Assembly (NCBI RefSeq): GCF_016469035.1
Contig: NZ_JAEHJZ010000046.1
Location: forward strand, 1 to 64,000
Source: Gelidibacter salicanalis
GTDB taxonomy: Bacteria > Bacteroidota > Bacteroidia > Flavobacteriales > Flavobacteriaceae
Direction: 5' to 3'
Length of the DNA stretch: 64,000 nucleotides
Numbering within the stretch: the stretch's first letter is position 1; each line of letters starts with the position of its first letter. Positions 4,460 to 27,566 of the stretch are shown piece by piece. The notes below the pieces were generated by a model that saw only the letters and a program-made list of their open reading frames with translations, had not been told where the DNA came from and made no database searches. A program made the position numbers and the translations under genes.

Positions 4460-4484
4460 GTCTTAATACTTAATTCTAAAAGCG

Positions 4485-4512
4485 ACTTGTGCTGAGCGCA
4501 GTCGAAGCAAGT
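4485..4512. repeat. Short hairpin repeat with GCTGAGCGCAGTCGAAG core
   Basis: ACTTGTGCT (4485-4493) pairs with AGCAAGT (4506-4512) with one bulged base. The core, read on the minus strand as CTTCGACTGCGCTCAGC, is a motif I recall as widely dispersed in Bacteroidetes intergenic DNA. It sits between the htpG stop and the terminator. Only one copy was seen in this window. Confidence 0.6.
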
Positions 4513-4523
4513 GTTCTTAATTC

Positions 4524-13218: not shown

Positions 13219-13587
13219 ATGCAAACAAATAAAAAAACCTTGGTTTTTGGAGCTTCTTTAAACCCGAGTCGGTATTCAAATTTGGCCATGCACAAATTGG
13301 TGGCTCACAAACATGAAATTGTCGCTTTCGGATTGCGGGAAGGGGAAGTTGCGGGTATTACAATTGATACAGAATTGATCCCCTATACAGATATTGATAC
13401 GGTCACTTTATATATGAATGCCACAAGACAGGCGCCATTTTATGAGTATCTGATTGGTTTAAACCCTGAGCGTGTAATATTCAATCCCGGTACAGAGAAT
13501 CCTGAGTTTTTTAAGTTATTGAGAGCGGCTCAAATTGATTTTGAAATGGCCTGTACTTTAGTGATGCTTGGTACGAATCAATATTAG
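13219..13587 (+). CDS. CoA-binding domain protein (YccU-like)
   Basis: A 122-residue single-domain protein with a Rossmann-type fold. It starts KKTLVFGASLNPSRYSNLA, the nucleotide-binding turn of the CoA_binding_2 family, and ends with conserved FNPGTENPE and the FEMACTLVML segment. No enzyme activity is established for stand-alone members; binding of CoA is inferred from the family. The ATG at 13219 lies just after a good promoter box. The 3' end overlaps the convergent symporter gene by 30 bp, so the two messages would be antisense to each other over their ends. Confidence 0.85.
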   Translation: MQTNKKTLVFGASLNPSRYSNLAMHKLVAHKHEIVAFGLREGEVAGITIDTELIPYTDIDTVTLYMNATRQAPFYEYLIGLNPERVIFNPGTENPEFFKLLRAAQIDFEMACTLVMLGTNQY

Positions 13588-15000: not shown

Positions 15001-15063
15001 GTATTGTAAATATGGCGCAAATAACTTATTAAAAAAATCAAATTCCAAAATTATAAGAATCAA

Positions 15064-15299
15064 TCATTATTGTCCGGTAAAGAATTAAGATCGCTGCGCT
15101 TATAGTCCCGAACTATCGGGAAAAGAACCAAGACTTGATAGTAACTGACTGATAAACGGTCGTCATTCTAAATTAAATTTGCCCAATCACTCTGAGTGAA
15201 ATTGGTTTCAAAAACAAGGTGTCATTTTTAAGTTCTCGAACCAGATCATGTTTTAAGGGGATTTACAAACTTTTCACCTGCTATACCGGACACTGATGC
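15064..15299 (+). repeat. Dispersed ~237-bp non-coding repeat, copy 1
   Basis: A non-coding element lying between the symporter and recR. It is about 90% identical to the reverse complement of 23953-24190, and a decayed third copy is at 27277-27486. The ends are imperfect inverted repeats: TGTCCGGTA at 15071-15079 and TACCGGACA at 15284-15292, with ATCA-like sequence outside each. Inside are a CCCGA/TCGGG palindrome (15107-15120) and a hairpin CCAAT-CACTC/GAGTG-ATTGG (about 15183-15205). No open reading frame of note is present. MITE-like is the best description. Confidence 0.85.
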
Positions 15300-15353
15300 G
15301 CATCAATGTAAAATAAGTCTGAAGTAAAGCGTTCAAAATGTGGACTAAAATTG

Positions 15354-15361
15354 TAATTTTG
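15354..15361 (+). promoter_or_regulatory. recR: Promoter -7 box immediately before recR
   Basis: TAATTTTG matches TAnnTTTG perfectly and ends only 5 nt before the recR ATG at 15367. Transcription would start at or within a few bases of the ATG, implying a leaderless or nearly leaderless message. Confidence 0.65.
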
Positions 15362-15366
15362 TACCC

Positions 15367-15984
15367 ATGGAATTTTCTTCAAAACTACTCGAAAAAGCAG
15401 TATATGAAATGTCACAGCTCCCAGGAATTGGGAAACGTACGGCGTTGCGTTTGGTCTTGCATCTACTAAGACAACCTCAAGAACAAACCGTGCATTTGGC
15501 TTCCGCCTTGCAACACATGAGGAATGATATTAAGTTTTGCTCAAGTTGCCACAATATAAGTGATACACAACTTTGTGAGATTTGCGCCAATCCGCGTAGA
15601 ACTGAAGACATCATTTGTGTGGTAGAAGACATTAGAGATGTGATGGCCATTGAAAATACAAGTTCCTTTAAAGGCCTGTATCATGTGTTGGGCGGCAAGA
15701 TTTCACCTATGGACGGGATCGGTCCCAATGATCTGAATATTACAACCTTGGTCAGTAAAGTAAAAGAAGGCCGTGTAAAGGAATTGATTTTTGCATTGAG
15801 CTCCACAATGGAAGGCGATACTACCAACTTTTATATTTTTAAGCAAATTCAAGACTGTGAGATTGTCACGTCTACCATTGCCAGAGGAATTTCAGTGGGC
15901 AACGAGTTGGAATATACAGATGAGGTCACCCTTGGAAGAAGTATTTTAAACAGAATCCCGTTTGAAGCGTCCTTAAAATCCTGA
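15367..15984 (+). CDS. recR: Recombination protein RecR
   Basis: A 205-residue protein that works with RecF and RecO to load RecA on gapped DNA. It has an N-terminal helix-hairpin-helix ([18 protein letters not shown]), a four-cysteine zinc site C58, C61, C70 and C73 (CSSCHN, CEIC), and a Toprim domain beginning [17 protein letters not shown], followed by [18 protein letters not shown]. The ATG start gives the family N-terminus. The glycosyltransferase start codon lies 6 bp after the stop, so the two are cotranscribed. The gene is flanked upstream by dispersed repeat copy 1. Confidence 0.97.
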
Positions 15985-15990
15985 TTTTCT

Positions 15991-17085
15991 TTGAAACTAT
16001 CTGTCGTCATAGTAAATTATAATGTACGTTACTTTTTGGAGTTATGCCTAAAAAGTGTGCAAGCCGCGATTACCACCTTGGACGCTGAAATACTGGTGGT
16101 CGATAACCATTCTTCAGATGATAGTTGCCAAATGGTAAAGCAGCTTTTCCCAGAGATCACATTAATCCAAAACGAGCAAAATCTCGGGTTTTCTAAAGCT
16201 AATAATAGGGGCGTTGCCCACGCAAAAGGCGAATATGTGTGCATGTTGAATCCTGATACTGTAGTGGCTGAAGATACGTTTATCAAATGTTTGGCATATG
16301 CTGATAGTGTTTCTAAATTGGGCATTTTGGGCTGTCAACTCATTGATGGGCGCGGTCAGTTTCTTCCAGAGAGCAAACGAAATATTCCAACACCAAAAGT
16401 GTCATTTAAAAAAATCCTCGGCTTTCCAAAGTCCTATTATGCCACTCATTTGGCGCCGTCAGATATTGGAAAGGTTGAGGTGCTGGTAGGAGCTTTTATG
16501 TTGTTAAAAAAATCAGTTTTCCATCAGGTTAACGGGTTTGATGAAGATTATTTTATGTATGGTGAGGATATTGATCTTTCCTATAAGGTTTTAAAAGCCG
16601 GCTATCAAAATGTTTATTATGGAGAAATGACTATCCTTCATTATAAAGGAGAGAGCACGCTTAAAAACAAGGTTTATATATCCCGTTTTTATGGGGCGAT
16701 GCAGATTTTTTACACTAAACATTTTAAATCCAATCCTGCTTTTAATACGATGGTATGGATGGGGGTCAAATGGTCGCGTTTCCTTTTTAAATCACCAAAA
16801 CAAATAGAGCCCCACACCAGTAATTACGTGGTAGTGTCTGACCAGCTCAATTTTAATAAGAAACTTCCATTTCAGTTTCAGGTAGTTGCGAATAGCAAAA
16901 GTGTTTCTACACATACCCAATTTATTTTTGACGGGAATGTTATAAAGTATAAGGACATTATTGCGGATATGGCTACTTTAGACAAGAAAAAATCTTTCAC
17001 CTTTAGAATTTTACCATCCAACGCCCAATTTATTATTGGTAGCGATAGCTCAGAGCAGCGTGGCGAAGTGCTTTTATTCCCATAA
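15991..17085 (+). CDS. Family 2 glycosyltransferase
   Basis: A 364-residue GT-A fold enzyme that transfers an activated sugar to a cell-surface acceptor, probably at the inner face of the membrane. It opens with KLSVVIVNYNVRYFLELCL; NLGFSKANNRG and MLNPDTVV (the DxD-equivalent region) follow; FDEDYFMYGEDIDLSYK is the acceptor-side motif of rhamnosyltransferase-like members. The start is TTG at 15991, chosen because it directly precedes the conserved first strand, and no ATG is nearby. It follows recR by 6 bp, a pairing known from flavobacteria. About 90 C-terminal residues are not conserved to my eye. Confidence 0.88.
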   Translation: MKLSVVIVNYNVRYFLELCLKSVQAAITTLDAEILVVDNHSSDDSCQMVKQLFPEITLIQNEQNLGFSKANNRGVAHAKGEYVCMLNPDTVVAEDTFIKCLAYADSVSKLGILGCQLIDGRGQFLPESKRNIPTPKVSFKKILGFPKSYYATHLAPSDIGKVEVLVGAFMLLKKSVFHQVNGFDEDYFMYGEDIDLSYKVLKAGYQNVYYGEMTILHYKGESTLKNKVYISRFYGAMQIFYTKHFKSNPAFNTMVWMGVKWSRFLFKSPKQIEPHTSNYVVVSDQLNFNKKLPFQFQVVANSKSVSTHTQFIFDGNVIKYKDIIADMATLDKKKSFTFRILPSNAQFIIGSDSSEQRGEVLLFP

Positions 17086-17156
17086 TACGAATGAATATAT
17101 GCACCGTGAAGTCGGAAATTATAGAGGATTATGTAATGAAGTATGGCATTTTTAAT

Positions 17157-17164
17157 TAATTTTG
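17157..17164 (+). promoter_or_regulatory. Promoter -7 box for the E2 gene
   Basis: TAATTTTG matches the bacteroidete consensus. It lies 37 nt before the start codon of the 2-oxoacid dehydrogenase E2 gene. Confidence 0.55.
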
Positions 17165-17201
17165 CAAGAGCAAATAAAAATTTTAGCATTAGAATAACAA
17201 T

Positions 17202-18572
17202 ATGGCAAAGTTTGAATTGAAACTTCCAAAGATGGGAGAAAGCGTAGCAGAAGCAACCATTACCTCATGGTTGAAAAATGTTGGAGACACTATTGAAGCT
17301 GATGAAGCAGTGTTGGAAATCGCAACCGATAAAGTGGATAGTGAAGTGCCCAGTGAAGTGGATGGCATCTTGACCGAGATCCTTTTTAATGTGGATGATG
17401 TAGTAAAAGTGGGTCAAACTATAGCGATTATTGAAACTGAAGTGGATGCAGCCACAGTGCCTTCTTCATCACAAGAGACACCAGGGCAAGCACCGGTAAC
17501 TGAAACAGCTGAGGTAGCGCAAGTTATACAAACTGTTGAAGCAGCAAAAACGGCGGTAGCAGCACCGGTAACTTCTACTGAAGATCGTTTTTATTCGCCA
17601 TTGGTTAAAAACATAGCCAAACAAGAAGGCATTTCGCAATCTGAATTGGATAAAGTTTCTGGAACAGGAAAAGAAGGGCGTGTCACCAAAAGTGATATTC
17701 TGGACTATATTGAAACGAGAAAATCTGCACCGGCAGCAGCATCTCAGGTTTCTACAAACGTTGTCAATGAAATTCAACAATCAACTGTGCAAGCTGAAAA
17801 ACAACCGGCTGTAGCAAAACCAGCACCTGAGAAAGCCAAGGCAGCTTCTGAAGTCTTAGAGAATGGCGACGAAATTATTGAGATGAGCAGAATGGGCAAG
17901 CTCATTGCACATCATATGGTAGAATCTGTACAAAAATCAGCACATGTCCAAAGTTTTATTGAGGCTGATGTTACCAATATTTGGAACTGGCGTAATAAAG
18001 TTAAAAACGATTTTGCAAAACGCGAAGGTGAGAGTTTGACGTTCACTCCAATTTTTATGGAGGCCATTGCAAAAGCATTGCGTGAATTCCCCATGATGAA
18101 TATTTCGCTTCAAGACGATAAAATCATTAAAAAGAAACATATTAATTTAGGAATGGCTGCGGCACTACCTGACGGAAACTTGATTGTTCCAGTTATTAAA
18201 GATGCTGACCAATTGAATCTTATCGGCATGACCAAGCGGGTTAATGACTTGGCCAACAGAGCCCGTTTAAATCAATTGAAACCAGACGATATTCAAGGAG
18301 GCACCTATACCGTTACTAATGTGGGAACGTTTGGGAGTATTATGGGTACTCCAATTATCAATCAGCCACAAGTTGGTATTTTAGCATTGGGTGCTATCAG
18401 AAAAGTACCGGCGGTTGTAGAGACGCCTCAAGGCGACTTTATTGGCATTCGTTATAGGATGTTCCTTTCCCATTCCTATGACCACCGTGTTGTTAATGGG
18501 GCTCTTGGTGGACAATTTGTAAAAGCTGTTAAAGATTATTTGGAAGCTTGGGATGTGAACAGAGAGATTTAA
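17202..18572 (+). CDS. 2-oxoacid dehydrogenase E2 component (dihydrolipoyl acyltransferase)
   Basis: The 456-residue core subunit of a pyruvate, 2-oxoglutarate or branched-chain 2-oxoacid dehydrogenase complex. There is one lipoyl domain (1-77) with K44 in EIATDKVDSE as the lipoylation site, an Ala/Pro/Thr-rich linker, an E3/E1-binding domain near 130-170 (YSPLVKNIAKQEGIS), a second linker, and the catalytic domain with H428 in SHSYDHRVVNG. The last residue of the usual HRxxDG motif is Asn here rather than Asp. The substrate class cannot be fixed from the sequence; the single lipoyl domain and no linked E1 gene leave branched-chain as a good guess. A terminator follows. Confidence 0.9.
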   Translation: MAKFELKLPKMGESVAEATITSWLKNVGDTIEADEAVLEIATDKVDSEVPSEVDGILTEILFNVDDVVKVGQTIAIIETEVDAATVPSSSQETPGQAPVTETAEVAQVIQTVEAAKTAVAAPVTSTEDRFYSPLVKNIAKQEGISQSELDKVSGTGKEGRVTKSDILDYIETRKSAPAAASQVSTNVVNEIQQSTVQAEKQPAVAKPAPEKAKAASEVLENGDEIIEMSRMGKLIAHHMVESVQKSAHVQSFIEADVTNIWNWRNKVKNDFAKREGESLTFTPIFMEAIAKALREFPMMNISLQDDKIIKKKHINLGMAAALPDGNLIVPVIKDADQLNLIGMTKRVNDLANRARLNQLKPDDIQGGTYTVTNVGTFGSIMGTPIINQPQVGILALGAIRKVPAVVETPQGDFIGIRYRMFLSHSYDHRVVNGALGGQFVKAVKDYLEAWDVNREI

Positions 18573-18648
18573 TATATCTACCTTACCTTATAGTCCTGAA
18601 ACTTGGGAACTGTAAAGTCTTTATAAATACAAAGCCTAAACAAATCAT

Positions 18649-18679
18649 AAACCCAATCTTAAACTAGTTGGGTTTTTTT
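18649..18679 (+). terminator. Intrinsic terminator of the E2 gene
   Basis: The stem AAACCCAA (18649-18656) / TTGGGTTT (18668-18675) is followed by further T residues to 18679, 77 bp beyond the E2 stop. Confidence 0.85.
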
Positions 18680-18732
18680 ATTTTTACGCTGATGAATATC
18701 AGACCAATAAAAACATTTAATACAATTTTATT

Positions 18733-19509
18733 ATGACACTTAATCTTACCAAACCCATCTGCTTTTTCGACCTTGAAACTACAGGCATCAATATTACAAA
18801 TGACCGCATTGTTGAGATTGCTATTTTAAAGGTCTTTCCTGACAGCAAAGAAGAACGGAAAACATGGTTGGTCAATCCGGAAATGCCAATTCCCGCTGAG
18901 GTTACGGCTATTCATGGTATTTCTGATGCAGATATAGCAGACAAGCCTACCTTTAAGGAATTGGCCAAGGAAATTCATACCATGGTTAAAGATTCTGATT
19001 TGGCAGGCTTCAATTCCAACCGTTTCGATATTCCGTTATTAGCGGAAGAAATGTTACGTGCAGAGGTTGACTTTGATATGAAAGGACGCGTGGCTGTTGA
19101 TGTGCAAACAATTTTTCATAAAATGGAACAACGCACACTTTCTGCCGCTTATAAATTTTACTGTGATAAAAATTTAGAGGATGCCCATAGTGCCGCTGCA
19201 GATACAGATGCCACTTATGAAGTCCTAAAAGCACAGTTGGCCAGATACGATGAACTGGAAAACGACACCAAGTTTTTGGCCGAATTCAGCTCTCGCAAAA
19301 AGTTTGCAGATTTTGCCGGATTTATCGTGTACAACAAATATAATGAAGAATGTTTTTCTTTCGGTAAGCATAAAACCAAGAGGGTAGAAGATGTCTTAAA
19401 TGAAGAACCCGGCTATTTTGGCTGGTTGCTTAATGCTGATTTTCCGCTGTATACTAAAAAAGTCTTGACGGCCATTAAGTTACGAGCGTTCAATAATAAA
19501 TTGGCGTAG
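18733..19509 (+). CDS. 3'-5' exonuclease, DnaQ-like (DEDD), with C-terminal DUF3820/ExoX-like domain
   Basis: A 258-residue nuclease that removes nucleotides from DNA 3' ends. Exo I is CFFDLETTGIN with D13 and E15, Exo II is GFNSNRFDIPLL, and Exo III is HSAAADTDATY. After about residue 185 a small extra domain (CFSFGKHKTKRVEDVL ... YFGWLLNADFP) resembles the C-terminal domain of exonuclease X and the stand-alone DUF3820 protein at 40312-40542. It is not fused to a polymerase, so a role in repair or as an editing subunit is inferred. The ATG start immediately precedes the first strand. Confidence 0.87.
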   Translation: MTLNLTKPICFFDLETTGINITNDRIVEIAILKVFPDSKEERKTWLVNPEMPIPAEVTAIHGISDADIADKPTFKELAKEIHTMVKDSDLAGFNSNRFDIPLLAEEMLRAEVDFDMKGRVAVDVQTIFHKMEQRTLSAAYKFYCDKNLEDAHSAAADTDATYEVLKAQLARYDELENDTKFLAEFSSRKKFADFAGFIVYNKYNEECFSFGKHKTKRVEDVLNEEPGYFGWLLNADFPLYTKKVLTAIKLRAFNNKLA

Positions 19510-19649
19510 TTCAGTTGGCAGTTGTAGGGTTATAATGGACGGTTAGGGAAAAAAGTAGCCTAAATGGAATAATTTGTAAGCCGAATTTTAACTGCTTTTC
19601 GCGAATCAGAAAGTCAGTGTTCAATACTAATATAAAATAAATTTACCAC

Positions 19650-20261
19650 GTGAAAATCATCTGCATAGGTCGTAATTATACGGAACACATCAAGGAGTTG
19701 GCCAATGAAAAACCGACAGATCCCGTGGTGTTCTTAAAACCAGACACGGCCATCCTCTTAAAAAAACAACCGTTTTTTATTCCTGATTTTTCCAATGATG
19801 TGCATCACGAAGTGGAGATTTTGGTCAAAATCAATAAGGTCGGAAAATACATTGATAAAAAATTTGCCCATAAATATTATGATGACATCGGTCTTGGCAT
19901 TGATTTTACAGCGCGCGATTTACAGCAGCATTTAAAAGATAAAGGCTTACCCTGGGAAAAGGCTAAAGCTTTTGATGGTGCAGCAGTCATAGGTGAATGG
20001 TTGCCAAAATCAGAATTTGAATCTGTAGATGCACTTAGTTTTACCTTAGAAAAAAATGGAACTGTTGTACAACAGGGCAATACAAGTCATATGCTTTGGA
20101 AAATTGATGAGCTTATAGAATATGTCTCAAAATATTTCACTTTAAAGATCGGAGACATTATCTTTACGGGAACCCCTGCAGGAGTTGCTAAGGTAGAAGC
20201 TAATGATGAATTGAGGGGGTGTATTGAAAACGTTGAAATGTTTAAAATAACAGTCAAGTAA
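19650..20261 (+). CDS. Fumarylacetoacetate hydrolase family protein
   Basis: A 203-residue FAH-fold enzyme. GRNYTEHIKEL is the family N-terminus; HHEVEILVKI carries the metal-binding His and Glu residues; GLGIDFTARDLQ, WEKAKAFDGAA and IIFTGTPAGVAKV are conserved. Members are divalent-cation-dependent hydrolases or decarboxylases of beta-keto acids, for example oxaloacetate or acylpyruvates; the substrate here is unknown. The start is GTG at 19650. The HPt-domain gene begins 2 bp after its stop and cinA follows, so the three form one operon. Confidence 0.88.
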   Translation: MKIICIGRNYTEHIKELANEKPTDPVVFLKPDTAILLKKQPFFIPDFSNDVHHEVEILVKINKVGKYIDKKFAHKYYDDIGLGIDFTARDLQQHLKDKGLPWEKAKAFDGAAVIGEWLPKSEFESVDALSFTLEKNGTVVQQGNTSHMLWKIDELIEYVSKYFTLKIGDIIFTGTPAGVAKVEANDELRGCIENVEMFKITVK

Positions 20262-20263
20262 AA

Positions 20264-20605
20264 ATGGAAAATAATTATAAACTCTATCGTGTTCGAGAGC
20301 TCGCAGATGGGGATGAGGATTTTGTTAAGGCACTTGCCGCTGCATTTTTGGAAGAAGTTCCGGAAGATGCCGCGCGTCTAAAAAAAGCGGTTGCTGAGGT
20401 AGATTATTATACGACCTATCAAGCGGCGCACAAAATGAAGCCAACTATTGATTTGTTTGAGCTTGGTGTTTTGGAAGATTTAATCGTCGTGCAGGATTGG
20501 GGTAAATTGGAAAAAAAAGAAGATGATGTTTCCGTGCAATTACAATCGGTTTTGGAGGCAATAGAAAAAACTGTTGAAGAAATTAAAAGTGATTTCAATC
20601 TCTGA
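20264..20605 (+). CDS. HPt (histidine phosphotransfer) domain protein
   Basis: A 113-residue, all-helical protein. The segment YTTYQAAHKMKPTIDLF matches the HPt signature, with H56 as the phosphorylatable residue. Such proteins relay phosphate between response-regulator receiver domains. No histidine kinase or receiver is encoded nearby, so its partners are elsewhere in the genome. The acidic N-terminal half is like that of bacteroidete stand-alone HPt proteins. It lies 2 bp after the FAH gene and overlaps cinA by one base, which suggests translational coupling. Confidence 0.8.
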   Translation: MENNYKLYRVRELADGDEDFVKALAAAFLEEVPEDAARLKKAVAEVDYYTTYQAAHKMKPTIDLFELGVLEDLIVVQDWGKLEKKEDDVSVQLQSVLEAIEKTVEEIKSDFNL

Positions 20606-21852
20606 TGTTAGCAGAAATCATAACCATTGGAGACGAAATTTTAATTGGACAAGTTGTTGATACCAATTCTGCATTTATCGCCAAACAACTTAATAAAATT
20701 GGGGTGTCTGTATATCAGATTACCTCTGTTCAGGATGATAAAGAACATATCTTAAAATCTCTTAGGGAAGCAGAGGAGAATGCAAGTATCATTATTCTTA
20801 CGGGTGGATTAGGCCCCACTAAAGATGATATCACCAAAAACACCCTTGCCGAATATTTTGACGATACCCTGTTAAGAAACGAGGCCGTTACACAAAATAT
20901 CAAGCGTCTTTGGGCTGATTTTGTCAATAATATTCCCACCCAAGTCAATTTGGACCAAGCGTTAGTGCCTTCTAAAGCACAAGTGTTAATGAATTTACAC
21001 GGGAGTGCCCCAGGCATGTGGATCGAAAAAGATGGTAAAGTGTTTATCTCGCTACCTGGTGTCCCATATGAGATGAGAGGATTGATTGACGATGTGGTAA
21101 TTCCGAAGTTAAGAAAGCAATTTAAATTCCCCTATATACAACATGACACCTTATTGACCTATGGTTTGGGTGAAAGCGCTTTAGCAGAACGTATAGAGGC
21201 ATGGGAAGACCAATTGCCTCACTATATAAAACTCGCGTATTTGCCTAGCTTAGGACGCGTGCGCTTGCGACTTTCAGGCAAGTCCATGGACAAACAAATG
21301 ATTCAAAATGAAATAAAACATCAAATAGCGTTGGTATTGCCACTAATTGAAGATGTCTTTGTGGGCTTTGAACGCGATGAGTCTATTGAAGCGGTTATTG
21401 GGAAACAATTAACCGCAATGGGTAAAACGGTGGCCACTGCAGAAAGTTGTACAGGCGGAAAAATAGCCGAATTATTTACGGCCAATGCAGGTGCGTCACG
21501 TTATTTTAAAGGCAGTGTAGTCAGCTACGCTACACAAGCCAAGATAGATGTACTGGGGGTTGACGCTCAGTTGATTGAAGAATTCTCAGTAGTCAGCGCA
21601 CAAGTGGCAGAAGCCATGGCTACAGCGGCCATAAAACTTTTTGATTCAGACTTTGCCATTGCTACTACAGGAAATGCAGGACCTGAAAAAGGCGATGCCG
21701 ATACTGAAGTGGGGAAGGTGTTTTTAGCTATTGCCACACGGGATAAGGTGTTTTCAGAACAATTTACGTTTGGAAACCATCGGCTTAAGGTGATTGATAG
21801 GGCAGTAAATAAGGCCTTTGAAATGCTTCAAAAAGAAATTTTAAAAAAGTAA
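20605..21852 (+). CDS. cinA: CinA-like protein (nicotinamide-nucleotide amidase / competence-damage protein)
   Basis: 415 residues with two domains: an N-terminal MoaB-like molybdopterin-binding fold (AEIITIGDEILIGQVVDTNS, TGGLGPTKDD) and a C-terminal PncC amidase domain beginning VATAESCTGGKIAELFT. The C-terminal domain deamidates NMN to NaMN in related proteins, and the N-terminal one is associated with ADP-ribose pyrophosphatase activity. The start ATG overlaps the preceding stop (ATGA-type junction). Gene order cinA-rpmB-rpmG-DUF4295-ftsY is one I recall from other Flavobacteriaceae. Confidence 0.93.
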   Translation: MLAEIITIGDEILIGQVVDTNSAFIAKQLNKIGVSVYQITSVQDDKEHILKSLREAEENASIIILTGGLGPTKDDITKNTLAEYFDDTLLRNEAVTQNIKRLWADFVNNIPTQVNLDQALVPSKAQVLMNLHGSAPGMWIEKDGKVFISLPGVPYEMRGLIDDVVIPKLRKQFKFPYIQHDTLLTYGLGESALAERIEAWEDQLPHYIKLAYLPSLGRVRLRLSGKSMDKQMIQNEIKHQIALVLPLIEDVFVGFERDESIEAVIGKQLTAMGKTVATAESCTGGKIAELFTANAGASRYFKGSVVSYATQAKIDVLGVDAQLIEEFSVVSAQVAEAMATAAIKLFDSDFAIATTGNAGPEKGDADTEVGKVFLAIATRDKVFSEQFTFGNHRLKVIDRAVNKAFEMLQKEILKK

Positions 21853-21861
21853 CAATATTAG

Positions 21862-21893
21862 TTTGTGGGTATTGTAAAGTTTTACTAAATTTG
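21862..21893 (+). promoter_or_regulatory. Promoter of the rpmB-rpmG-DUF4295 operon
   Basis: A -33 TTTG at 21862-21865 and a -7 TAAATTTG at 21886-21893 are separated by 20 nt, the best match to the bacteroidete consensus in the window. Transcription should start near 21900, about 30 nt before rpmB. Confidence 0.75.
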
Positions 21894-21930
21894 CAAACTG
21901 TTTTAAATAACATCATTAAAGTTAGAAAGA

Positions 21931-22167
21931 ATGTCAAGAGTTTGTGAACTTACTGGAAAAAAAGCGATGGTTGGAAACAACGTATCTCATGCGATGAATA
22001 AAACGAAACGTAAATTTGATGCAAATCTGATTAAAAAACGTTTCTATATTCCTGAAGAGGATAAATGGGTGACTTTAAAAGTTGCTACATCTGCATTGAA
22101 GACCATCAATAAAATTGGAATTTCTGCTGCGATTAAGGAAGCAAAATCTAAAGGATTTTTAAAATAA
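21931..22167 (+). CDS. rpmB: 50S ribosomal protein L28
   Basis: 78 residues beginning MSRVCELTGKKAMVGNNVSHA, the standard bL28 start, followed by NKTKRKFDANL and the basic C-terminal helix. A structural component of the large subunit. It is first in a three-gene ribosomal operon with rpmG and the DUF4295 gene, behind a strong consensus promoter. Confidence 0.98.
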   Translation: MSRVCELTGKKAMVGNNVSHAMNKTKRKFDANLIKKRFYIPEEDKWVTLKVATSALKTINKIGISAAIKEAKSKGFLK

Positions 22168-22224
22168 TAGCCAACAAGGATGAGGTTTCCGTAGTTGCGG
22201 AAATGATAAATAAAATATTTTACA

Positions 22225-22407
22225 ATGGCAAAAAGAGGTAATAGAATACAAGTCATATTAGAGTGTACTGAGCATAAAGAGTCTGGACAACCAGGAACTT
22301 CTCGTTACATCACTACAAAAAATAAAAAGAATACGCCAGATAGAATGGAGATTAAGAAATTTAATCCTATCCTTAAGCGTATGACAGTTCATAAAGAGAT
22401 AAAATAA
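22225..22407 (+). CDS. rpmG: 50S ribosomal protein L33
   Basis: 60 residues: [20 protein letters not shown], then [15 protein letters not shown] and [13 protein letters not shown], as usual for bL33. The zinc-binding cysteine pairs of the C+ form are absent; only C14 remains, so this is the zinc-independent type. It is 57 bp downstream of rpmB. Confidence 0.97.
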
Positions 22408-22452
22408 ATGTAGATTCCCATTTTCATGGGAATTGTAAAAATAAGTTTTCCA

Positions 22453-22605
22453 ATGGCAAAAAAATCAGTAGCATCGTTACAAACAGGATCTAAAAGATTA
22501 ACCAAAGCTATTAAAATGGTTAAATCCCCAAAAACAGGAGCTTACCAGTTCGTTGAACAAGTCATGGCACCTGAGTTTGTTGACGAATTCTTAAAGAAAA
22601 AATAA
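22453..22605 (+). CDS. DUF4295 small ribosomal protein (bL38-like)
   Basis: A 50-residue, very basic protein: MAKKSVASLQ, then KRLTKAIKMVKSPKTG and a short acidic end. Its position directly after rpmG and its MAKK start identify the bacteroidete family DUF4295. From memory, this family was seen as an extra 50S protein (bL38) in the structure of a flavobacterial ribosome; that part is recall, not sequence evidence. The start ATG is at 22453 and the stop at 22603-22605. A hairpin terminator follows within 21 bp, closing the operon. Confidence 0.9.
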   Translation: MAKKSVASLQTGSKRLTKAIKMVKSPKTGAYQFVEQVMAPEFVDEFLKKK

Positions 22606-22625
22606 ATATATACACTATATTTTTT

Positions 22626-22657
22626 AAAAACTGCTTTCATTTGAAAGCAGTTTTTTT
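22626..22657 (+). terminator. Terminator of the rpmB operon
   Basis: The stem CTGCTTTC (22631-22638) / GAAAGCAG (22643-22650) has a 4-nt loop and flanking A5 and T7 runs. It is a textbook rho-independent terminator. Confidence 0.95.
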
Positions 22658-22662
22658 ATGTC

Positions 22663-22670
22663 TATATTTG
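22663..22670 (+). promoter_or_regulatory. ftsY: Possible promoter -7 box for ftsY
   Basis: TATATTTG sits just past the rpmB-operon terminator. If used, it gives ftsY an unusually long leader of about 135 nt (start codon at 22815) with no open reading frame of note in it. Confidence 0.45.
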
Positions 22671-22814
22671 AGTTAAATATGACAAATTAGCAGATTGTAC
22701 TTTAGGGCAAGAAATTTGTTATCAGTTTTTTGTGCGTTAGCTTACAGGTTACCGCAATTTAGGCGTCACAACTAACATAAGACGTTATAACCAACTACAA
22801 CTAACTTAAAGACA

Positions 22815-23768
22815 ATGAGCTTTTTTAAAAAAATATTCTCTTCTGAAAAAAAGGAAACCTTAGATAAAGGATTGGAAAAATCCAAAGCTTCTTTTTTCAC
22901 CAAGCTCAATAAGGCCGTTGCCGGAAAATCCAAAGTCGATGAAGACGTTCTAGATAACCTGGAAGAAATTCTGGTAGCAAGTGATGTCGGTGTAAATACA
23001 ACCTTAAAGATCATTACAAGAATTGAGGAGCGGGTGGCTCAAGACAAATATCTTGGTACTTCTGAACTCAATCAAATTTTGAGAGAGGAAATTGCCGGAT
23101 TATTATCTGAAGTGGATAGTGGTGAAGCTACCGAATTTACAGTTCCAAAAGATAAAAAACCATATGTGATCATGGTGGTTGGGGTGAATGGTGTTGGAAA
23201 AACGACCACCATTGGTAAACTGGCATCCCAATTTAAAAAACAGGGGTTAAGCGTCGTTCTGGGTGCTGCTGACACCTTTAGGGCTGCAGCTATTGATCAA
23301 CTTCAAATTTGGGCAGACCGTGTAGATGTGCCCATGGTACGCCAAGATTTTGGGAGTGATCCAGCTTCTGTGGCTTTTGATACTCTAAAAAGTGGGGTCA
23401 ACCAAAATGCTGATGTAATTATTATTGACACCGCTGGGCGTTTGCATAATAAAGTAAACTTGATGAACGAGTTGACAAAAATCAAACGTGTGATGCAAAA
23501 AGTTATCGTTGATGCGCCTCACGATGTGTTGTTGGTATTGGATGGTTCTACAGGACAGAATGCTTTTGAACAAGCCAAACAGTTTACCGCAGCTACTGAA
23601 GTCACTTCTTTGGCAGTGACAAAACTCGACGGAACCGCCAAAGGTGGGGTGGTGATCGGAATTTCTGATCAGTTTAAAATTCCAGTAAAGTATATTGGGG
23701 TAGGCGAAGGAATAGACGATTTACAAGTCTTTAACAAATTCGAATTTGTCGATTCTTTCTTCAAATAA
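22815..23768 (+). CDS. ftsY: Signal recognition particle receptor FtsY
   Basis: A 317-residue SRP GTPase at the inner face of the membrane that docks ribosome-SRP complexes to the translocon. It has a short N-terminal NG-type helical region, the P-loop GVNGVGKTTT at 123-132, GAADTFRAAAIDQL, IIDTAGRLHNK and the closing TKLDGTAKGG. The long acidic N-terminal A domain of E. coli FtsY is missing, as is normal in bacteroidetes. It is the last gene of the plus-strand run bounded by the two inverted repeat copies. Confidence 0.97.
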   Translation: MSFFKKIFSSEKKETLDKGLEKSKASFFTKLNKAVAGKSKVDEDVLDNLEEILVASDVGVNTTLKIITRIEERVAQDKYLGTSELNQILREEIAGLLSEVDSGEATEFTVPKDKKPYVIMVVGVNGVGKTTTIGKLASQFKKQGLSVVLGAADTFRAAAIDQLQIWADRVDVPMVRQDFGSDPASVAFDTLKSGVNQNADVIIIDTAGRLHNKVNLMNELTKIKRVMQKVIVDAPHDVLLVLDGSTGQNAFEQAKQFTAATEVTSLAVTKLDGTAKGGVVIGISDQFKIPVKYIGVGEGIDDLQVFNKFEFVDSFFK

Positions 23769-23952
23769 TTGGTGCTTTAACTGTTGTCAAATTTCAATTT
23801 ATACTGAGAATGCCATAATTTACTATTTCTATATACCAACATTATAGTAGTCATACGTATTTGCGGTTTTAACTGCATCGAATCATTCTTCATAAAGTCT
23901 TAGGTTTAATTCAACGACCTCACCATAATTGATGGGTTTTTATTATTTTTAA

Positions 23953-24190
23953 GCATCAGTCCGGTATTATGACAGGTGAAAAGTTTACAAACCCCTTAAA
24001 GCATAATCTGGTTCGAGAACTTAAAAATGACACTTTGTTTTTGAAACCAATTTCACTGAGAGTGATTGGGCAAATTTAATTTAGAATAACGATTGTTTAT
24101 CAGTTAGTTACAATCAAGTCTTTGTTCTTTTCCCGATAGTTATCGGGACTATAAGCGCAGCGATCTTAATTCTTTATCGGACAATAATGA
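23953..24190 (-). repeat. Dispersed ~237-bp non-coding repeat, copy 2 (inverted)
   Basis: The reverse complement of this stretch aligns with 15064-15299 from end to end with roughly 90% identity and only short indels. One end reads ATCATTATTGTCCG and the other GCATCAGTCCGGTA, imperfect terminal inverted repeats. It carries the full palindrome CCCGATA-GT-TATCGGG at 24132-24147. Its left end lies 21 bp from the amidase ATG, so the amidase promoter must lie within or at the edge of the element. The preceding 23769-23952 holds nothing recognisable. Confidence 0.85.
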
Positions 24191-24211
24191 TTTTTAATAA
24201 AAATACCCACT

Positions 24212-25846
24212 ATGAAATATCTTTTAGTTTGTACTGCCTTTTTATTTGTCTTTTCCTGTAAGAATTCTCACAATACAACCAAGCCCACTACTGATACGGA
24301 TATCAGTGCTATTTCCACTAAGGAGTACACTGAATTTAAAGTTTTAGATTCCAAATATATTAACACTGATGAGCTATGGCAGCCATTTCATAAAGATCTG
24401 GAAGCGTTTACTGAAAAAGAATATCAGGCTTTGAAGCCGCTCATCTTAGAGCAGGATATTCCAACCTTACAAGCCCATATTCAAAATGGCAATCTGACTT
24501 ATGAAAATCTGACAAAATTTTACCTCTATCGCATCCGGAAATTTGATCGGGAGAATGCCTTGTCGTTAAATTCTGTCATTTCTTTAAATCCAAACGTTAT
24601 TTCTGAAGCTCAACAAAAAGACGAGGCATTAAAAAATAGGATGCGCAAACACCTAATCTTTGGAATGCCCATTCTTTTAAAAGATAATATCAATACAGCT
24701 ACTATGCCTACCACTGCAGGTGCTGTAGCCTTTCAAAATAATACCACTGCTGATGCGTTTATTGTTGAGCGCTTAAAGGAAAACGGTGCTTTAATTTTAG
24801 GAAAAGCCAACTTAAGTGAATGGGCGTATTTCTTTTGCGGCGATTGTCCTAGCGGGTATAGCGCCATTGGCGGTCAAACCTTAAACCCTTACGGTCGTAA
24901 AGTAATGGATACCGGTGGATCGAGTTCTGGGAGTGGGGTAGCAGTAGCCGCTAACTTCTGTGTTGCTGCTATCGGCAGTGAAACTTCAGGGTCTATTCTT
25001 TCGCCATCAAGTCAGAATTCGGTTGTCGGTTTAAAACCGACCATAGGTGTGTTGAGTAGGAGTGGTATTATCCCAATTTCTTCAACCCTTGATACCCCTG
25101 GGCCAATAACAAAAAATGTTACAGACAGTGCGATAGTCTTGGATGCCATGTTGGGGTATGATGGTAATGATTCTAAATCCATGTCTACAAATTGGGACAA
25201 TGGTTCGCTTTATGAAAATTTTGATGACCACACATTAAGAGGAAAACGTTTTGGTGCATTCAAAGAACTATTAGAAGACTCTTTATATGTGAGAGCGCTT
25301 ACAGATTTAAAATCGAAAGGAGCCATCATTATTGAGATTGATGAAGAAAAAGTTAAGCTCCCAGGGTTTATAAGACTTTTAAATTTAGACATGCAGAATG
25401 ATTTCCCTAGTTATGTTGAAGCTTCCGGAGATCCATCTCTACATTTAAAGTCCATTCAGGATGTTATCGCTTTTAATAAAAAAGATTCCATTACTACTAT
25501 GCCATACGGGCAAAAACTGTTTGAAGGTGTCGTTACCGATCGTGCATCAGAAGCTGAATTTGATGAGATTAAGACCATACTCAAAACCAACGGTCGATTG
25601 TTTTTTGACACCCCAATGGAAACTCTTAGTTTGCACGGATTTCTCTCTGTAAATAACTATCATGCGGGTGCTGCGGCCGTGGTGGAATATCCAGCTATTA
25701 CTGTGCCAATGGGGTATAAGGACAATGGCGAGCCAAAAGGCTTGACCTTTATAGCTAAACCGTTGTCAGAAAATGACCTCTTGTCATGGGCGTATGCCTA
25801 TGAACAGGCCTCCCACAGACGCATGGCTCCAAAGAATTATAACTAA
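24212..25846 (+). CDS. Amidase-signature lipoprotein
   Basis: A 544-residue exported lipoprotein. MKYLLVCTAFLFVFSC is a lipoprotein signal with C16 as the lipidated cysteine, so it is probably anchored in the periplasm. The Ser-Ser-Lys machinery of the amidase signature family is readable: K157 in ILLKDNIN, the GGSSSGSG stretch (235-242), and nucleophile S261 in ETSGSILSPSS. The signal peptide rules out GatA of the tRNA amidotransferase; a peptide or amino-acid amidase is more likely. It lies between ftsY and rimO, which I recall as adjacent in relatives, and directly behind a dispersed repeat, so it may be a later insertion. Confidence 0.85.
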   Translation: MKYLLVCTAFLFVFSCKNSHNTTKPTTDTDISAISTKEYTEFKVLDSKYINTDELWQPFHKDLEAFTEKEYQALKPLILEQDIPTLQAHIQNGNLTYENLTKFYLYRIRKFDRENALSLNSVISLNPNVISEAQQKDEALKNRMRKHLIFGMPILLKDNINTATMPTTAGAVAFQNNTTADAFIVERLKENGALILGKANLSEWAYFFCGDCPSGYSAIGGQTLNPYGRKVMDTGGSSSGSGVAVAANFCVAAIGSETSGSILSPSSQNSVVGLKPTIGVLSRSGIIPISSTLDTPGPITKNVTDSAIVLDAMLGYDGNDSKSMSTNWDNGSLYENFDDHTLRGKRFGAFKELLEDSLYVRALTDLKSKGAIIIEIDEEKVKLPGFIRLLNLDMQNDFPSYVEASGDPSLHLKSIQDVIAFNKKDSITTMPYGQKLFEGVVTDRASEAEFDEIKTILKTNGRLFFDTPMETLSLHGFLSVNNYHAGAAAVVEYPAITVPMGYKDNGEPKGLTFIAKPLSENDLLSWAYAYEQASHRRMAPKNYN

Positions 25847-25935
25847 GATTTTCATGCACATTATACTTGGAATGATTCATTTTTTCACATCCCAGAGAAA
25901 AATAAATCCTATCCTATAAATCGTAAATCATTACG

Positions 25936-25943
25936 TATCTTTG
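25936..25943 (+). promoter_or_regulatory. rimO: Promoter -7 box for rimO
   Basis: TATCTTTG matches TAnnTTTG and lies 20 nt before the preferred rimO ATG (25964). Confidence 0.6.
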
Positions 25944-25963
25944 CACACTTAATTTTTGTGGAT

Positions 25964-27271
25964 ATGAGAACGAAATCGCTTAAAAAGAATCGCATCAATG
26001 TGGTCACACTAGGTTGTAGCAAGAATGTATACGACAGTGAAGTCCTTATGGGGCAACTTAAAGCGAGTGGTAAAGATGTGGTACATGAAGAAGAAGGTAA
26101 CATTGTAGTGATCAATACCTGTGGCTTTATCAATAATGCCAAAGAAGAAAGCATCAATACCATTCTCGAATTTATGCAGAAAAAGGAAGATGGTGAAGTA
26201 GACAAAGTATTTGTTACCGGATGTTTGAGTGAACGTTATAAGCCAGATTTGCAAAAGGAAATCCCAAATGTGGACCAATATTTTGGAACTACGGAACTCC
26301 CCGGATTATTAAAAGCCTTGGGTGCAGATTATAGACATGAACTGATTGGAGAACGTTTAACCACGACGCCTAAAAACTATGCCTATTTAAAAATTGCTGA
26401 AGGTTGCGACAGGCCATGTAGTTTCTGTGCCATTCCGTTAATGCGTGGTAAGCATAAAAGTACACCCATTGAAAATCTTGTCATTGAAGCTGAAAAATTA
26501 GCCGCTAATGGCGTAAAAGAGTTGATCTTGATTGCTCAGGATTTAACTTATTACGGACTCGATATTTACAAAAAGCGTAACCTGGCAGAATTGCTGGAAG
26601 CGCTTGTAAAAGTTGATGGTATTGAATGGATCCGACTGCATTATGCTTTTCCTACGGGCTTCCCTATGGATGTGCTGGATGTTATGAACAGAGAGTCGAA
26701 AATATGCAATTATCTGGATATTCCTTTACAACATATTTCCGATACGATCCTTAAAAGTATGCGACGAGGGACGACTAAAGAAAAAACCACTAAGCTTTTA
26801 AATGAATTCAGAAAAACAGTTCCGGAAATGACCATCAGAACCACATTAATTGTGGGGTATCCTGGAGAGACAGAGGAGAATTTTCAAGAATTGAAACAAT
26901 GGGTTACCGAGATGCGTTTTGAGCGTTTGGGTTGTTTTACGTATTCTCACGAGGAAAATACTCACGCTTTTAATTTAGAAGATGATGTTCCGGAAGAGGT
27001 TAAAATGCAACGAGCCAATGAGATTATGGAAATCCAGTCGCAAATTTCATGGGAATTGAATCAGGCCAAAATTGGAAATGAATTTAAAGTAGTCATTGAC
27101 CGTAAGGAGGGCAACTATTTTGTTGGCCGTACAGAATTTGATTCGCCAGACGTTGATAATGAAGTGCTGATTGATGCCTCTAAATGCTATTTAAAAACAG
27201 GTGAGTTTACTACGGTAAAAGTTACTGAAGCGGAAGATTTTGATTTGTACGCGGAGGTTGTGGCTTCGTAA
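25964..27271 (+). CDS. rimO: Ribosomal protein S12 methylthiotransferase RimO
   Basis: A radical-SAM enzyme that attaches a methylthio group to the conserved aspartate of ribosomal protein S12. The 435 residues hold the N-terminal UPF0004 domain with cluster cysteines C18, C53 and C87 (TLGCSKN, NTCGFIN, TGCLSER), the radical SAM CxxxCxxC at C148, C152 and C155 (GCDRPCSFC), and a C-terminal TRAM domain. ATG 25964 is preferred; a GTG two codons upstream (25958) is also possible. It is followed within 10 bp by the decayed third copy of the dispersed repeat. Confidence 0.95.
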   Translation: MRTKSLKKNRINVVTLGCSKNVYDSEVLMGQLKASGKDVVHEEEGNIVVINTCGFINNAKEESINTILEFMQKKEDGEVDKVFVTGCLSERYKPDLQKEIPNVDQYFGTTELPGLLKALGADYRHELIGERLTTTPKNYAYLKIAEGCDRPCSFCAIPLMRGKHKSTPIENLVIEAEKLAANGVKELILIAQDLTYYGLDIYKKRNLAELLEALVKVDGIEWIRLHYAFPTGFPMDVLDVMNRESKICNYLDIPLQHISDTILKSMRRGTTKEKTTKLLNEFRKTVPEMTIRTTLIVGYPGETEENFQELKQWVTEMRFERLGCFTYSHEENTHAFNLEDDVPEEVKMQRANEIMEIQSQISWELNQAKIGNEFKVVIDRKEGNYFVGRTEFDSPDVDNEVLIDASKCYLKTGEFTTVKVTEAEDFDLYAEVVAS

Positions 27272-27276
27272 AGAAC

Positions 27277-27486
27277 CATTGTTGTCAGATAAAGAATAGA
27301 GAATAGAGAATAGAGAATAGAGAGTAGTTCATAGAGAAAATTAACTGACTGATAAACAATCGTTATTCTAAATTAGATTTGCCCGCTCACTCTAAGTGAA
27401 ATTAGCTTCAAAAAGCAAGGTATCATTTTAAGATTACATATCAGGTTTTGCTCTAGCTGGGTTTGTAGACTTTAATCTGGTTTACC
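27277..27486 (+). repeat. Dispersed repeat, copy 3 (decayed)
   Basis: The left end CATTGTTGTCAGATAAAGAAT matches the end of the other copies. The middle (about 27342-27430: ACTGACTGATAAACAATCGT, GCCCGCTCACTCTAAGTGAA) is clearly homologous, and the right end up to about 27486 is diverged. The segment with the CCCGATA palindrome is replaced by a 7-bp tandem repeat. The orientation is that of copy 1. Confidence 0.75.
27293..27327. repeat. (AGAATAG) heptanucleotide tandem repeat
   Basis: Four perfect AGAATAG units and a fifth with one change (AGAGTAG). It sits inside dispersed repeat copy 3, in the place where copies 1 and 2 have the CCCGATA palindrome. Confidence 0.9.
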
Positions 27487-27513
27487 ATAGAAAATAGTCT
27501 TATGATATCAATA

Positions 27514-27557
27514 AAACCAAATCTGGATCTTAATAAAGACTTTCATCTGGTTTTTTT
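27514..27557 (+). terminator. Probable terminator between rimO and mgtE
   Basis: AAACCAAAT (27514-27522) pairs with ATCTGGTTT (27545-27553) with one mismatch and is followed by T residues. The loop is 22 nt, longer than usual. It would serve rimO, 240 bp upstream. Confidence 0.55.
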
Positions 27558-27566
27558 ATGTAATTA

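Follow-up and report, generated by a model that had tools for sequence, protein, structure and literature searches.

A family of MITEs with 9-bp target duplications in Gelidibacter, very probably moved in trans by an IS4-family transposase

The closest parallels to the repeat family described here are MITEAba12 and BrickBuilt. According to the parts of the reports available to us, MITEAba12 of Acinetobacter is likewise short and non-coding, with 16-bp imperfect ends and 9-bp duplications, is distributed across one family, the Moraxellaceae, and is also proposed to be moved by a co-resident IS (ISAba12), with which its identity is limited to the ends (PMC6382973). BrickBuilt of Porphyromonas gingivalis is, like the present family, a MITE-like element of the Bacteroidota, intergenic and with another repeat trapped inside it (PMC4596501, in the sections consulted). 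MITECca01 of Cardinium is a further high-copy Bacteroidota MITE for which dependence on an IS in the same genome is assumed (PMC9769881, from the portion at hand). The family in Gelidibacter has the features by which MITEs are recognized, being short and non-coding with terminal inverted repeats, a duplication of fixed length (9 bp), many copies and empty sites.

Copies in the window and in the genome

An earlier note had described three copies of a non-coding repeat in the window, i.e. the whole 64,000-nucleotide stretch of DNA analyzed. All three copies are there, and the imperfect inverted repeats that bound the element proved to be 17-bp terminal inverted repeats; copies 1 and 2 lay where the note had placed them, except that each of their borders had been drawn 1 bp too far out. 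The features of the window are as follows.

15065-15298, + strand: MITE copy 1, 234 bp long and lying between a sodium/solute-symporter-like and a recR-like gene (named by eye from their ORFs).
15065-15081, + strand: left terminal inverted repeat of copy 1, CATTATTGTCCGGTAAA.
15282-15298, - strand: right terminal inverted repeat of copy 1, reading inward CATCAGTGTCCGGTATA.
15056-15064, no strand assigned: left 9 bp of the target duplication of copy 1, AGAATCAAT.
15299-15307, no strand assigned: right 9 bp of the same duplication, CGCATCAAT, matching at 7/9 positions.
15082-15140 (approximate), + strand: conserved inner block of copy 1, with AAGA heptads around CGCTGCGCT, then CTTGATAG...
15106-15121, no strand assigned: REP-like palindrome TCCCGAACTATCGGGA within this inner block.
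23954-24189, - strand: MITE copy 2, 236 bp long, with ATTTTTAAG and ATTTTTAAT on its two sides (8/9).
27277 to about 27490, + strand: MITE copy 3, decayed.
4460-4525, - strand: solo inner core, having no terminal repeats (profile 12.4 bits, E 0.005).

Copies 1 and 2 were 90.5% identical over their full length, in keeping with the roughly 90% given before, with many 1-2 bp indels found between copies and a deletion carried by the right end of copy 2. Copy 3 has a mutated left end, AGAATAG-type repeats in place of the block and no right end; blastn aligned it to copy 1 only at query positions 79-165 (87.5%), and a profile built on the leftmost 100 bp of the element picked up the left portion of copy 3 at 27277-27375 (29.9 bits, E 1.7e-8). 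No ORF of at least 100 aa overlapped copies 1 or 2, the element itself being shorter than an ORF of 100 aa, no match was found in Rfam at gathering scores, and plasmid and phage collections gave no match to the element. The earlier note had also reported that no target-site duplication was evident. A 9-bp duplication does exist at copies 1 and 2, and it may have been overlooked because it is imperfect at both; at copy 3 none was seen.

Three copies are the window's share of a far larger family. The element of about 235 bp (range about 210-260 bp, non-coding) reads CATTATTGTCCGATAAAG...TTTTACCGGACACTGATG, with CATTATTGTCCGATAAAG and CATCAGTGTCCGGTAAAA as its pair of terminal inverted repeats, and a 42-copy alignment showed sharp common ends, some copies being clipped by contig ends. 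Clustering gave 71 genomic places, comprising 44 with a BLAST match, 26 found by the end pattern only (including the autonomous IS discussed below) and copy 3, which was added by hand. The 16-position end pattern had 88 exact matches in the genome, 44 per strand, as compared to 0 for the reversed control, and the abundance of the repeat is thus far beyond chance.

Among the 47 two-ended copies, which window copies 2 and 3 do not belong to as they fall outside the end pattern, the 9-bp duplication was perfect in 28 and matched at 8/9 in 6. Flank identity reached its maximum of 0.865 at length 9, with values of 0.35-0.48 at the other lengths from 3 to 14, and the flanks matched at 7.8/9 positions as compared to a mean of 4.5/9 (highest 4.9) when right flanks were re-dealt. 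The duplicated target is AT-rich, roughly ATTNNAAAT. Apparent short forms of 72, 93 and 117 bp (L068 twice, L073) turned out to be assembly gaps with runs of N; the duplications of these three and of other N-containing copies are included in the 47.

Empty sites and amplification within Gelidibacter

The site of copy 1 was empty in all nine other Gelidibacter genomes examined, and in three of these (G305, G244 and G013, the last with one base different) a single copy of the target was seen. By direct alignment the site of copy 3 was empty in five of the nine; the examination of empty sites covered the three window copies. On the downstream side of the same rimO-like gene, the G. salicanalis genome G013 carries an insertion of its own, whose duplication is 9/9. 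Gelidibacter genomes other than the one under study gave 32 candidate end pairs, two of them supplied by one element, with 16 perfect and six 8/9 duplications.

Amplification has been lineage-specific. For 43 of 45 copies in the genome under study (G000) and 18 of 23 in G013 the nearest neighbour was found within the same genome, and 60 of 253 copy pairs in G013, where BLAST matched the MITE 41 times, exceeded 97% identity. The many copies and empty sites that the earlier note had named as a check on its MITE-like reading were thereby found, as was the IS with such ends that it had proposed to look for, and the reading holds.

These results also bear on whether the repeat is a regulatory or structural element, conserved at fixed sites and immobile. 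The conservation of its inner block between genera nearly equals that of the ends, and the copies are mostly intergenic (2/47 called within an ORF, by a crude caller), as such an element might be. The sites of copies 1 and 3, found empty in relatives, speak against it, however, and for copy 1 they refute it, and the 9-bp duplications at a family spread over about 70 genomic places do not fit a fixed-site element, so that we find this explanation scarcely credible.

An IS4-family element as candidate mobilizer

The same genome contains an intact IS of 1,386 bp (G000:C1:207965-209350) with TGTCCGATAAA ends, reading CATTGTTGTCCGATAAA/CATTAATGTCCGATAAA and of the same type as those of the MITE. 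Its transposase of 400 aa matched NF033592 (E 8.7e-62), PF01609 and PF14294, with D133-D203-E308 and a full YREK motif, YKIRWQIELLFKQLK at 301. The IS4 family is marked by a single ORF with YREK as well as D(60-110)D(100-150)E and by duplications that span about one turn of the helix, and its IS4Sa subgroup by CA ends that carry a T at position 9, a size of 1150-1750 bp and 8-10 bp duplications (PMC2266710, as far as its text was available). Both the D(60-110)D(100-150)E spacing and the Y(2)R(3)E(6)K signature are present in the element found here, and its ends (CATTGTTGT..., CA------T) and length agree with IS4Sa, a placement judged from these features rather than from a tree.

We consider it very probable that the repeat is a MITE family moved in trans by an IS4-family transposase, with 9-bp AT-rich duplications. 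An IS4-family (DUF4372 + DDE_Tnp_1) transposase would recognize CATYAKTGTCCGRTAAA-type ends and move the MITE in trans, presumably by cut-and-paste, and staggered cutting of the target would give rise to the 9-bp AT-rich duplications. The ends, the length of the duplication, the empty sites and the intact co-resident IS with the same ends are all observed, and it is from the shared ends, duplication length and co-residence that this particular transposase appears to act on the MITE.

The same ends and duplication length also occur in some IS relatives of other genera. Among 11 such relatives four had a perfect 9-bp duplication (L191, L192 and L193, with MITE-type ends, and L198, with diverged ends) and one, L195, again with MITE-type ends, an 8/9 duplication; the four with MITE-type ends had transposases 48-50% identical to that of the co-resident IS. 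The remaining 6/11 yielded no pair of ends whose duplication reached 8/9, using a pattern that allowed only three mismatches. A transposase match was present in 9 of 13 genomes with at least eight profile matches as compared to 28 of 286 others (Fisher p 1.3e-6), in a test that takes no account of phylogeny, accepts fragments as transposase matches and solo cores as profile matches, uses the best ~10 matches per genome and presumes from the numbering that its 299 genomes are all among the 397 searched with the profile.

Several observations were counted against mobilization by the IS4-family element. No target duplication was seen at the IS copy in this genome (4/9), the transposase occurs in the G013 assembly only as a 56-residue fragment, and 35 of the 52 profile-positive genomes were without a transposase match. 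The two testable IS copies in G. algens also showed no target duplication, three further copies there being outside the duplication test.

It could further be asked whether the family is a type I MITE, that is, a product of internal deletion in the co-resident IS4-type element or in a close relative, as terminal repeats of the same type and an equal duplication length in MITE and IS might suggest. The best score of the MITE left-100-bp profile at 30 transposase loci was 13.9 bits, with 8.6-10.4 bits at Gelidibacter IS ends (some extending nominally to model position 72), as compared to 42-97 bits for two-ended elements with a duplication of at least 8/9, several of which had gone into the profile, so that their high scores are built in. 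Within-genome best matches between MITE and IS (G000, G088, G257) paired terminal repeat with terminal repeat over 17-25 bp, or a repeat-like site internal to the IS. Subterminal DNA in common with the parent IS, as defines a type I MITE, was not found for the IS elements seen. Because MITE and IS share little beyond their ends, the MITE does not evidently derive from these elements by deletion, and the earlier suggestion of a non-autonomous IS derivative is not upheld in its simple sense; a lost parent IS that carried the block is conceivable, although we hold the deletion origin to be unlikely. More improbable still would be REP/RAYT-type repeats moved by a tyrosine transposase, with incidental terminal repeats. 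The inner core and its palindromes do occur solo without terminal repeats, but 28/47 copies have perfect 9-bp duplications placed exactly at the inverted-repeat ends, and 9-bp duplications are not known for REP-type insertions. That explanation is contradicted for the whole element and may hold for the solo core.

The inner block and comparison with known systems

Using a multiple alignment with a shuffled-interior control, the approximately 50 bp inside the left end showed a conservation between genera of 0.71 as compared to 0.75 at the end and at most 0.364 when shuffled, figures that are to be read with ascertainment bias in mind. Pairwise global alignment had not separated the block from shuffled controls (0.737 vs 0.724), and this measure was replaced because, gaps being cheap, every pair was freely re-aligned. 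The core is also found alone in related bacteria, as a small intergenic repeat lacking terminal repeats, and its internal palindromes likewise occur alone. The solo core at 4460-4525 lies directly 3' of the stop codon of an htpG-like gene and has a different palindrome in the same slot. The palindrome strings were not found in the open-licence literature searched, where, for six core and end strings, only one 11-base string matched, in two papers unrelated by title.

A conserved RNA was considered and rejected. Copy 1 gave fold z values of -2.66 (+ strand) and -1.35 (- strand), yet the consensus of 21 sequences reached -6.56 kcal/mol, with a two-sided change in 1/21 pairs and with 10/21 pairs being the terminal repeats themselves. 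Inspection of the block by eye also took in promoter and host-factor-site (IHF-like) readings.

In the MITE family, the inner block may serve as a cis-acting transposition site or be a REP-like passenger repeat. Tentatively, and as a possibility that we would not put at even chances, the core AAGACCGCTNCGCTNNTAGANNNAAGANNNAAGACTT could be a flavobacterial repeat living either solo between genes or within a lineage of IS4-type MITEs, there as fixed cargo or as a cis-enhancer, the order of end and core being kept in that lineage across at least nine genera, its two slots being hot spots that gain or exchange smaller palindromic repeats, with three nested levels of repeat.

The family accounts for many of the interspersed repeats of Gelidibacter, which it links to a named transposase group, and for some of the contig breaks in the draft genome. 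It also offers a natural series, Flavobacteriaceae-wide, of non-autonomous elements on which one can test directly whether the conserved inner block is needed, and its interior, shared between genera, together with the solo core bears on the origin and persistence of MITEs that share only their ends with an IS.

Compared with the described systems, the likely mobilizer resembles IS4Sa elements in its CA/T9 ends, single ORF and D-D-E + YREK (PMC2266710, in the part available). MITEAba12 differs in being 113 bp and in its proposed mobilizer, which is another IS, and the accessible part of its description does not mention a solo-living core or exchangeable palindromes (PMC6382973). BrickBuilt holds a 23-nt tandem repeat and, in the sections consulted, has duplications in 3/4 testable copies that vary in length and sequence (PMC4596501), unlike the fixed 9 bp seen here. 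MITECca01, finally, has a parent of the IS982 family, and in the portion at hand its authors derive the MITE from that IS (PMC9769881).

Copies and target duplications of the MITE family

The window contains three copies of the approximately 235-bp non-coding element, bounded by imperfect 17-bp terminal inverted repeats:

15065-15298, + strand, MITE copy 1
23954-24189, - strand, MITE copy 2
27277 to about 27490, + strand, MITE copy 3, decayed

In copy 3, a run of an AGAATAG-type 7-bp repeat (window about 27293-27336) took the place of the block of about 50 bp found inside the left end, here called the core, and is perhaps a slippage product of the core heptads. The window's own genome, a draft of 5.16 Mb in 682 contigs, gave at least 41 matches in a first BLAST search (40 of 125 candidates scored) and at least 42 with a second query (40 of 136 scored), and each strand had 44 matches to the end pattern ATNANTGTCCGRTAAA, versus 0 for the reversed control. 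Clustering by a simple distance rule resulted in 71 places, of which 44 were BLAST-matched and 26 carried the end pattern alone (including an autonomous IS), with window copy 3 entered by hand. Contig starts or ends fell within several copies and some held N runs; the copy number is approximate because the draft is broken at repeats. Three seemingly short MITEs (loci L068 and L073) were N-filled assembly gaps within copies, and counts of length variants in this draft would therefore mislead.

Alignment of 42 copies with their flanks gave sharp ends, being CATTATTGTCCGATAAAG at the left and TTTTACCGGACACTGATG at the right. The earlier note had reported no obvious target-site duplication, which must be revised, as 28 of the 47 two-ended elements in loci fetched from this genome had identical 9-bp flanks, the remainder matching at 8/9 (6 elements), 7/9 (4), 6/9 (3) or at most 5/9 (6). 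Mean flank identity was 0.865 when the duplication was taken to be 9 bp long, compared to 0.35-0.48 at all other lengths from 3 to 14, and 7.8 of 9 positions matched, versus 4.5 on average and 4.9 at the highest when right flanks were re-dealt. In the 34 elements whose flanks matched at 8/9 or 9/9, the duplicated target was rich in A and T, approximately ATTNNAAAT; copy 1 is flanked by AGAATCAAT and CGCATCAAT. Using a crude ORF caller, 18 of the 47 sites were convergent, 16 tandem, 8 divergent and 3 at a locus end; two were called inside an ORF, one being window copy 1, for which the caller chose a TTG start that made the ORF too long.

Empty sites and amplification

The neighbourhood 13558-28907 was present in all nine other genomes analyzed of the genus Gelidibacter. 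For the three window copies, the element was excised by script and the joined flanks were aligned to these relatives. At copy 1 they aligned straight through in 9/9, with a single target copy in G305, G244 and G. salicanalis IC162 (G013), and many copies with empty sites were what the earlier note had proposed as support for mobility. At copy 3, the joined flanks aligned through in five of the nine; G302 had both flanks at a spacing 45 bp longer than the empty site, IC162 had different DNA, and only one flank was matched in G244 and G. algens ACAM 536 (G299). For copy 2, surrounded by poorly conserved DNA, the joined flanks never aligned through in the nine relatives. Both of its flanks were found in seven, their spacing differing by at most 35 bp from the element-free length in six of these and exceeding it by 133 bp in G. 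algens, and one flank was matched in G300 and G305. In IC162, that intergenic region, which lies downstream of a rimO-like gene, carried an independent insertion of this family, flanked by ATTATTTAT on both sides.

The nearest neighbour lay in the same genome for 43 of 45 copies here and for 18 of 23 in IC162. Pairs more than 97% identical made up 60 of 253 in IC162 versus 7 of 990 in the window's genome, indicating a younger burst in IC162, in whose assembly the transposase was seen only as a 56-residue fragment.

A co-resident IS4-type element as candidate mobiliser

The family is non-coding, bounded by terminal inverted repeats, 9-bp-duplicating, multi-copy and variable in position, and a co-resident IS has matching ends. 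The search for an IS sharing the MITE ends, suggested in the earlier note, yielded one in this genome: among 14 loci with a DDE_Tnp_1 match, exact TGTCCGRTAAA flanked the gene on both sides only in L046.

G000:C1:207965-209350 (L046 1040-2425), autonomous IS, 1,386 bp, ends CATTGTTGTCCGATAAA and CATTAATGTCCGATAAA

Its 400-aa protein matched NF033592 'IS4 family transposase' (E 8.7e-62), PF01609 and PF14294/DUF4372. By the features given in PMC2266710, residues D133, D203 and E308 with a YREK motif at 301 agree with the IS4 hallmarks, and the CA...T ends with subgroup IS4Sa. G. algens had five open copies at 93% identity. A transposase match, fragments counted, was found in 37 of 299 family genomes, and 11 relatives of the IS were fetched from this search (L190-L200). 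TGTCCGRTAAA-type ends came with perfect 9-bp duplications in L191, L192 and L193 (49-50% identical) and with a duplication of 8/9 in L195 (48%); L198 (32%) combined diverged ends with a perfect 9-bp duplication, L190 and L194 had ends without duplication, and the end pattern used gave no end pair in L196, L197, L199 or L200. A strong hairpin just inside the IS 5' end, e.g. AAGCGGGATTTCC...GGATTTCCCGCTT, was seen by eye in L046, L099, L191, L192, L193 and L195, perhaps protecting the transposase gene against transcription that enters from outside.

The MITE would seem to be mobilised in trans by the co-resident IS4-type transposase. Counting against this link, the flanks of the IS copy in this genome matched at only 4/9, and neither of the two G. 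algens copies amenable to the test had its own target duplication. The sequence GTTCTAAAT flanked one of these (L093) on the left and the other (L099), on a different contig, on the right, which suggests recombination between IS copies or a mis-join. Co-occurrence was analyzed in the 299 genomes, assumed to lie among 397 searched with R1, a profile of the MITE left 100 bp built from 18 sequences. Counting at least eight R1 matches, 9 genomes had both, 28 the transposase only, 4 the MITE only and 258 neither (Fisher p 1.3e-6); when a single match was enough, the numbers were 17, 20, 35 and 227 (p 1.2e-5), in a test that ignores kinship, includes solo cores (inner cores without terminal repeats) and uses match counts that are lower bounds.

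Judged from sequence, the MITE does not evidently appear to be a deletion derivative of the IS. Elements having both ends and flanks duplicated at 8/9 or better, some being part of the profile, scored 42-97 bits against R1, with 81 and 87 bits for copies 1 and 2 of the window. At 30 transposase loci, the best R1 score was 13.9 bits, with 8.6-10.4 bits at the Gelidibacter IS ends, partly extending, nominally, to model position 72. The best MITE-IS matches within a genome (G000, G088 and G257) paired terminal repeat with terminal repeat over 17-25 bp; G088 had an extra match to a terminal-repeat-like site within the IS, and its MITE (L245) lacked a right end.

The conserved core, solo cores and known elements

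An exact 30-base pattern of left end and core matched 30 stretches, all Gelidibacter, in a collection of 84,980 species from which the window's own record may be absent, other-genus forms not fitting it exactly. BLAST with copy 1 matched 9 of 299 family genomes, covering most of the length only in two of the genus; the best other-genus matches were to the left part (4-97, 4-173, 7-79, 4-118, 4-97 and 4-102 of 247). Flavobacteriaceae genomes with an R1 match at E 1e-4 or better, solo cores included, numbered 70 out of 397 and represented 53 of 237 genera. On the same basis R1 matched, own genome included, 7 of 395 genomes sampled from the phylum, all seven Flavobacteriaceae, the share of the sample outside this family not being stated. 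Ten of 30 loci returned by the R1 family search had the two ends together with flanks duplicated at 8/9 or better, scored on the best candidate end pair; these represented nine genera (g1, g8, g27, g31, g88, g125, g186, g217 and g220) and were 175-226 bp in length. Those of g31, g125 and g220 had been found earlier by whole-element search.

A joint alignment was made of eleven elements from ten genera, each from a different genome; ten of them have duplications of 8/9 or better and L248 has 6/9. Mean pairwise identity was 0.71 in columns 19-68, next to the left end on its inner side, versus 0.75 for the end, compared to at most 0.364 for the best 50-column stretch in 20 trials with shuffled interiors, and identity fell to 0.18-0.48 in columns 101-220. 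Finding these loci with a left profile biases toward conserved left blocks; the whole-element search, free of that bias, likewise singled out the left part. The block difference had not shown in an earlier pairwise identity measure. The core may help transposition, keep insertions harmless to the host, or be a passenger with its own mobility.

Within the block, palindromes are exchangeable. This genome had 53 occurrences of TCCCGATNNCTATCGGGA on each strand (control 0), and all ten Gelidibacter genomes contained it. At 19 of 20 places fetched for lying outside already known copies, the pattern was found in its printed orientation, twice in a core (L220 and L223) and 17 times elsewhere. Four of these 17, the standalone palindromes at L225, L226, L227 and L231 of this genome, shared the context GTAACTGCANTGAATCCCGATAGCTATCGGGAGCAGGGTTTT, with small differences and one reversed, apparently a further interspersed repeat. 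At L234 and L237 (G301 and G302), around base 151, TCCCGATAGCTATCGGGA was seen by eye at the tip of hairpins resembling terminators (AGACCTGACGG / AGACCTAACAG ... T run). G. pelagius and G. japonicus share an orthologous MITE insertion at the same site (L143 and L144), with the CCTGTCTGCCGAACAGGCAGG palindrome in only one of the two, so palindromes were gained or lost after the MITE had landed.

In 20 regions chosen since the profile match mostly started past the terminal repeat, 15 held 18 solo cores, none adjoining an intact terminal repeat, and five failed a stricter pattern. One solo core lies in the window:

4460-4525, solo core with another palindrome in the slot, directly 3' of an htpG-like stop codon

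This site also held a solo core in G302 and G300, a different repeat (e.g. GTCATTGCGAGAAGC...AACGAAGCAATCTC) in six relatives and a third one in G. algens, as if the htpG-like 3' untranslated region were a common landing spot of repeat families, with three small repeats in ten genomes. Among the matches listed for the window's solo core, G300 had 11 at dispersed positions; its dispersed solo cores of about 66 bp (e.g. L319 and L328) carried a CTTCGACTGCGCTCAGC-type palindrome. L279 (G305:C4:96200-97100) was a tandem core array, with two cores 113 bp apart and GTGTAATTCGTGTCAAA-type repeats between.

The family fits a known kind of element, the point of interest being a core that is conserved across genera and also lives alone. 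Two MITE types are distinguished in PMC6382973, and the present family is nearer to type II. The closest parallel, described in the same source, is MITEAba12 (113 bp, 16-bp ends, 9-bp duplications), whose identity to its IS elements is limited to the ends, and BrickBuilt, according to PMC4596501, is a MITE holding a trapped repeat.
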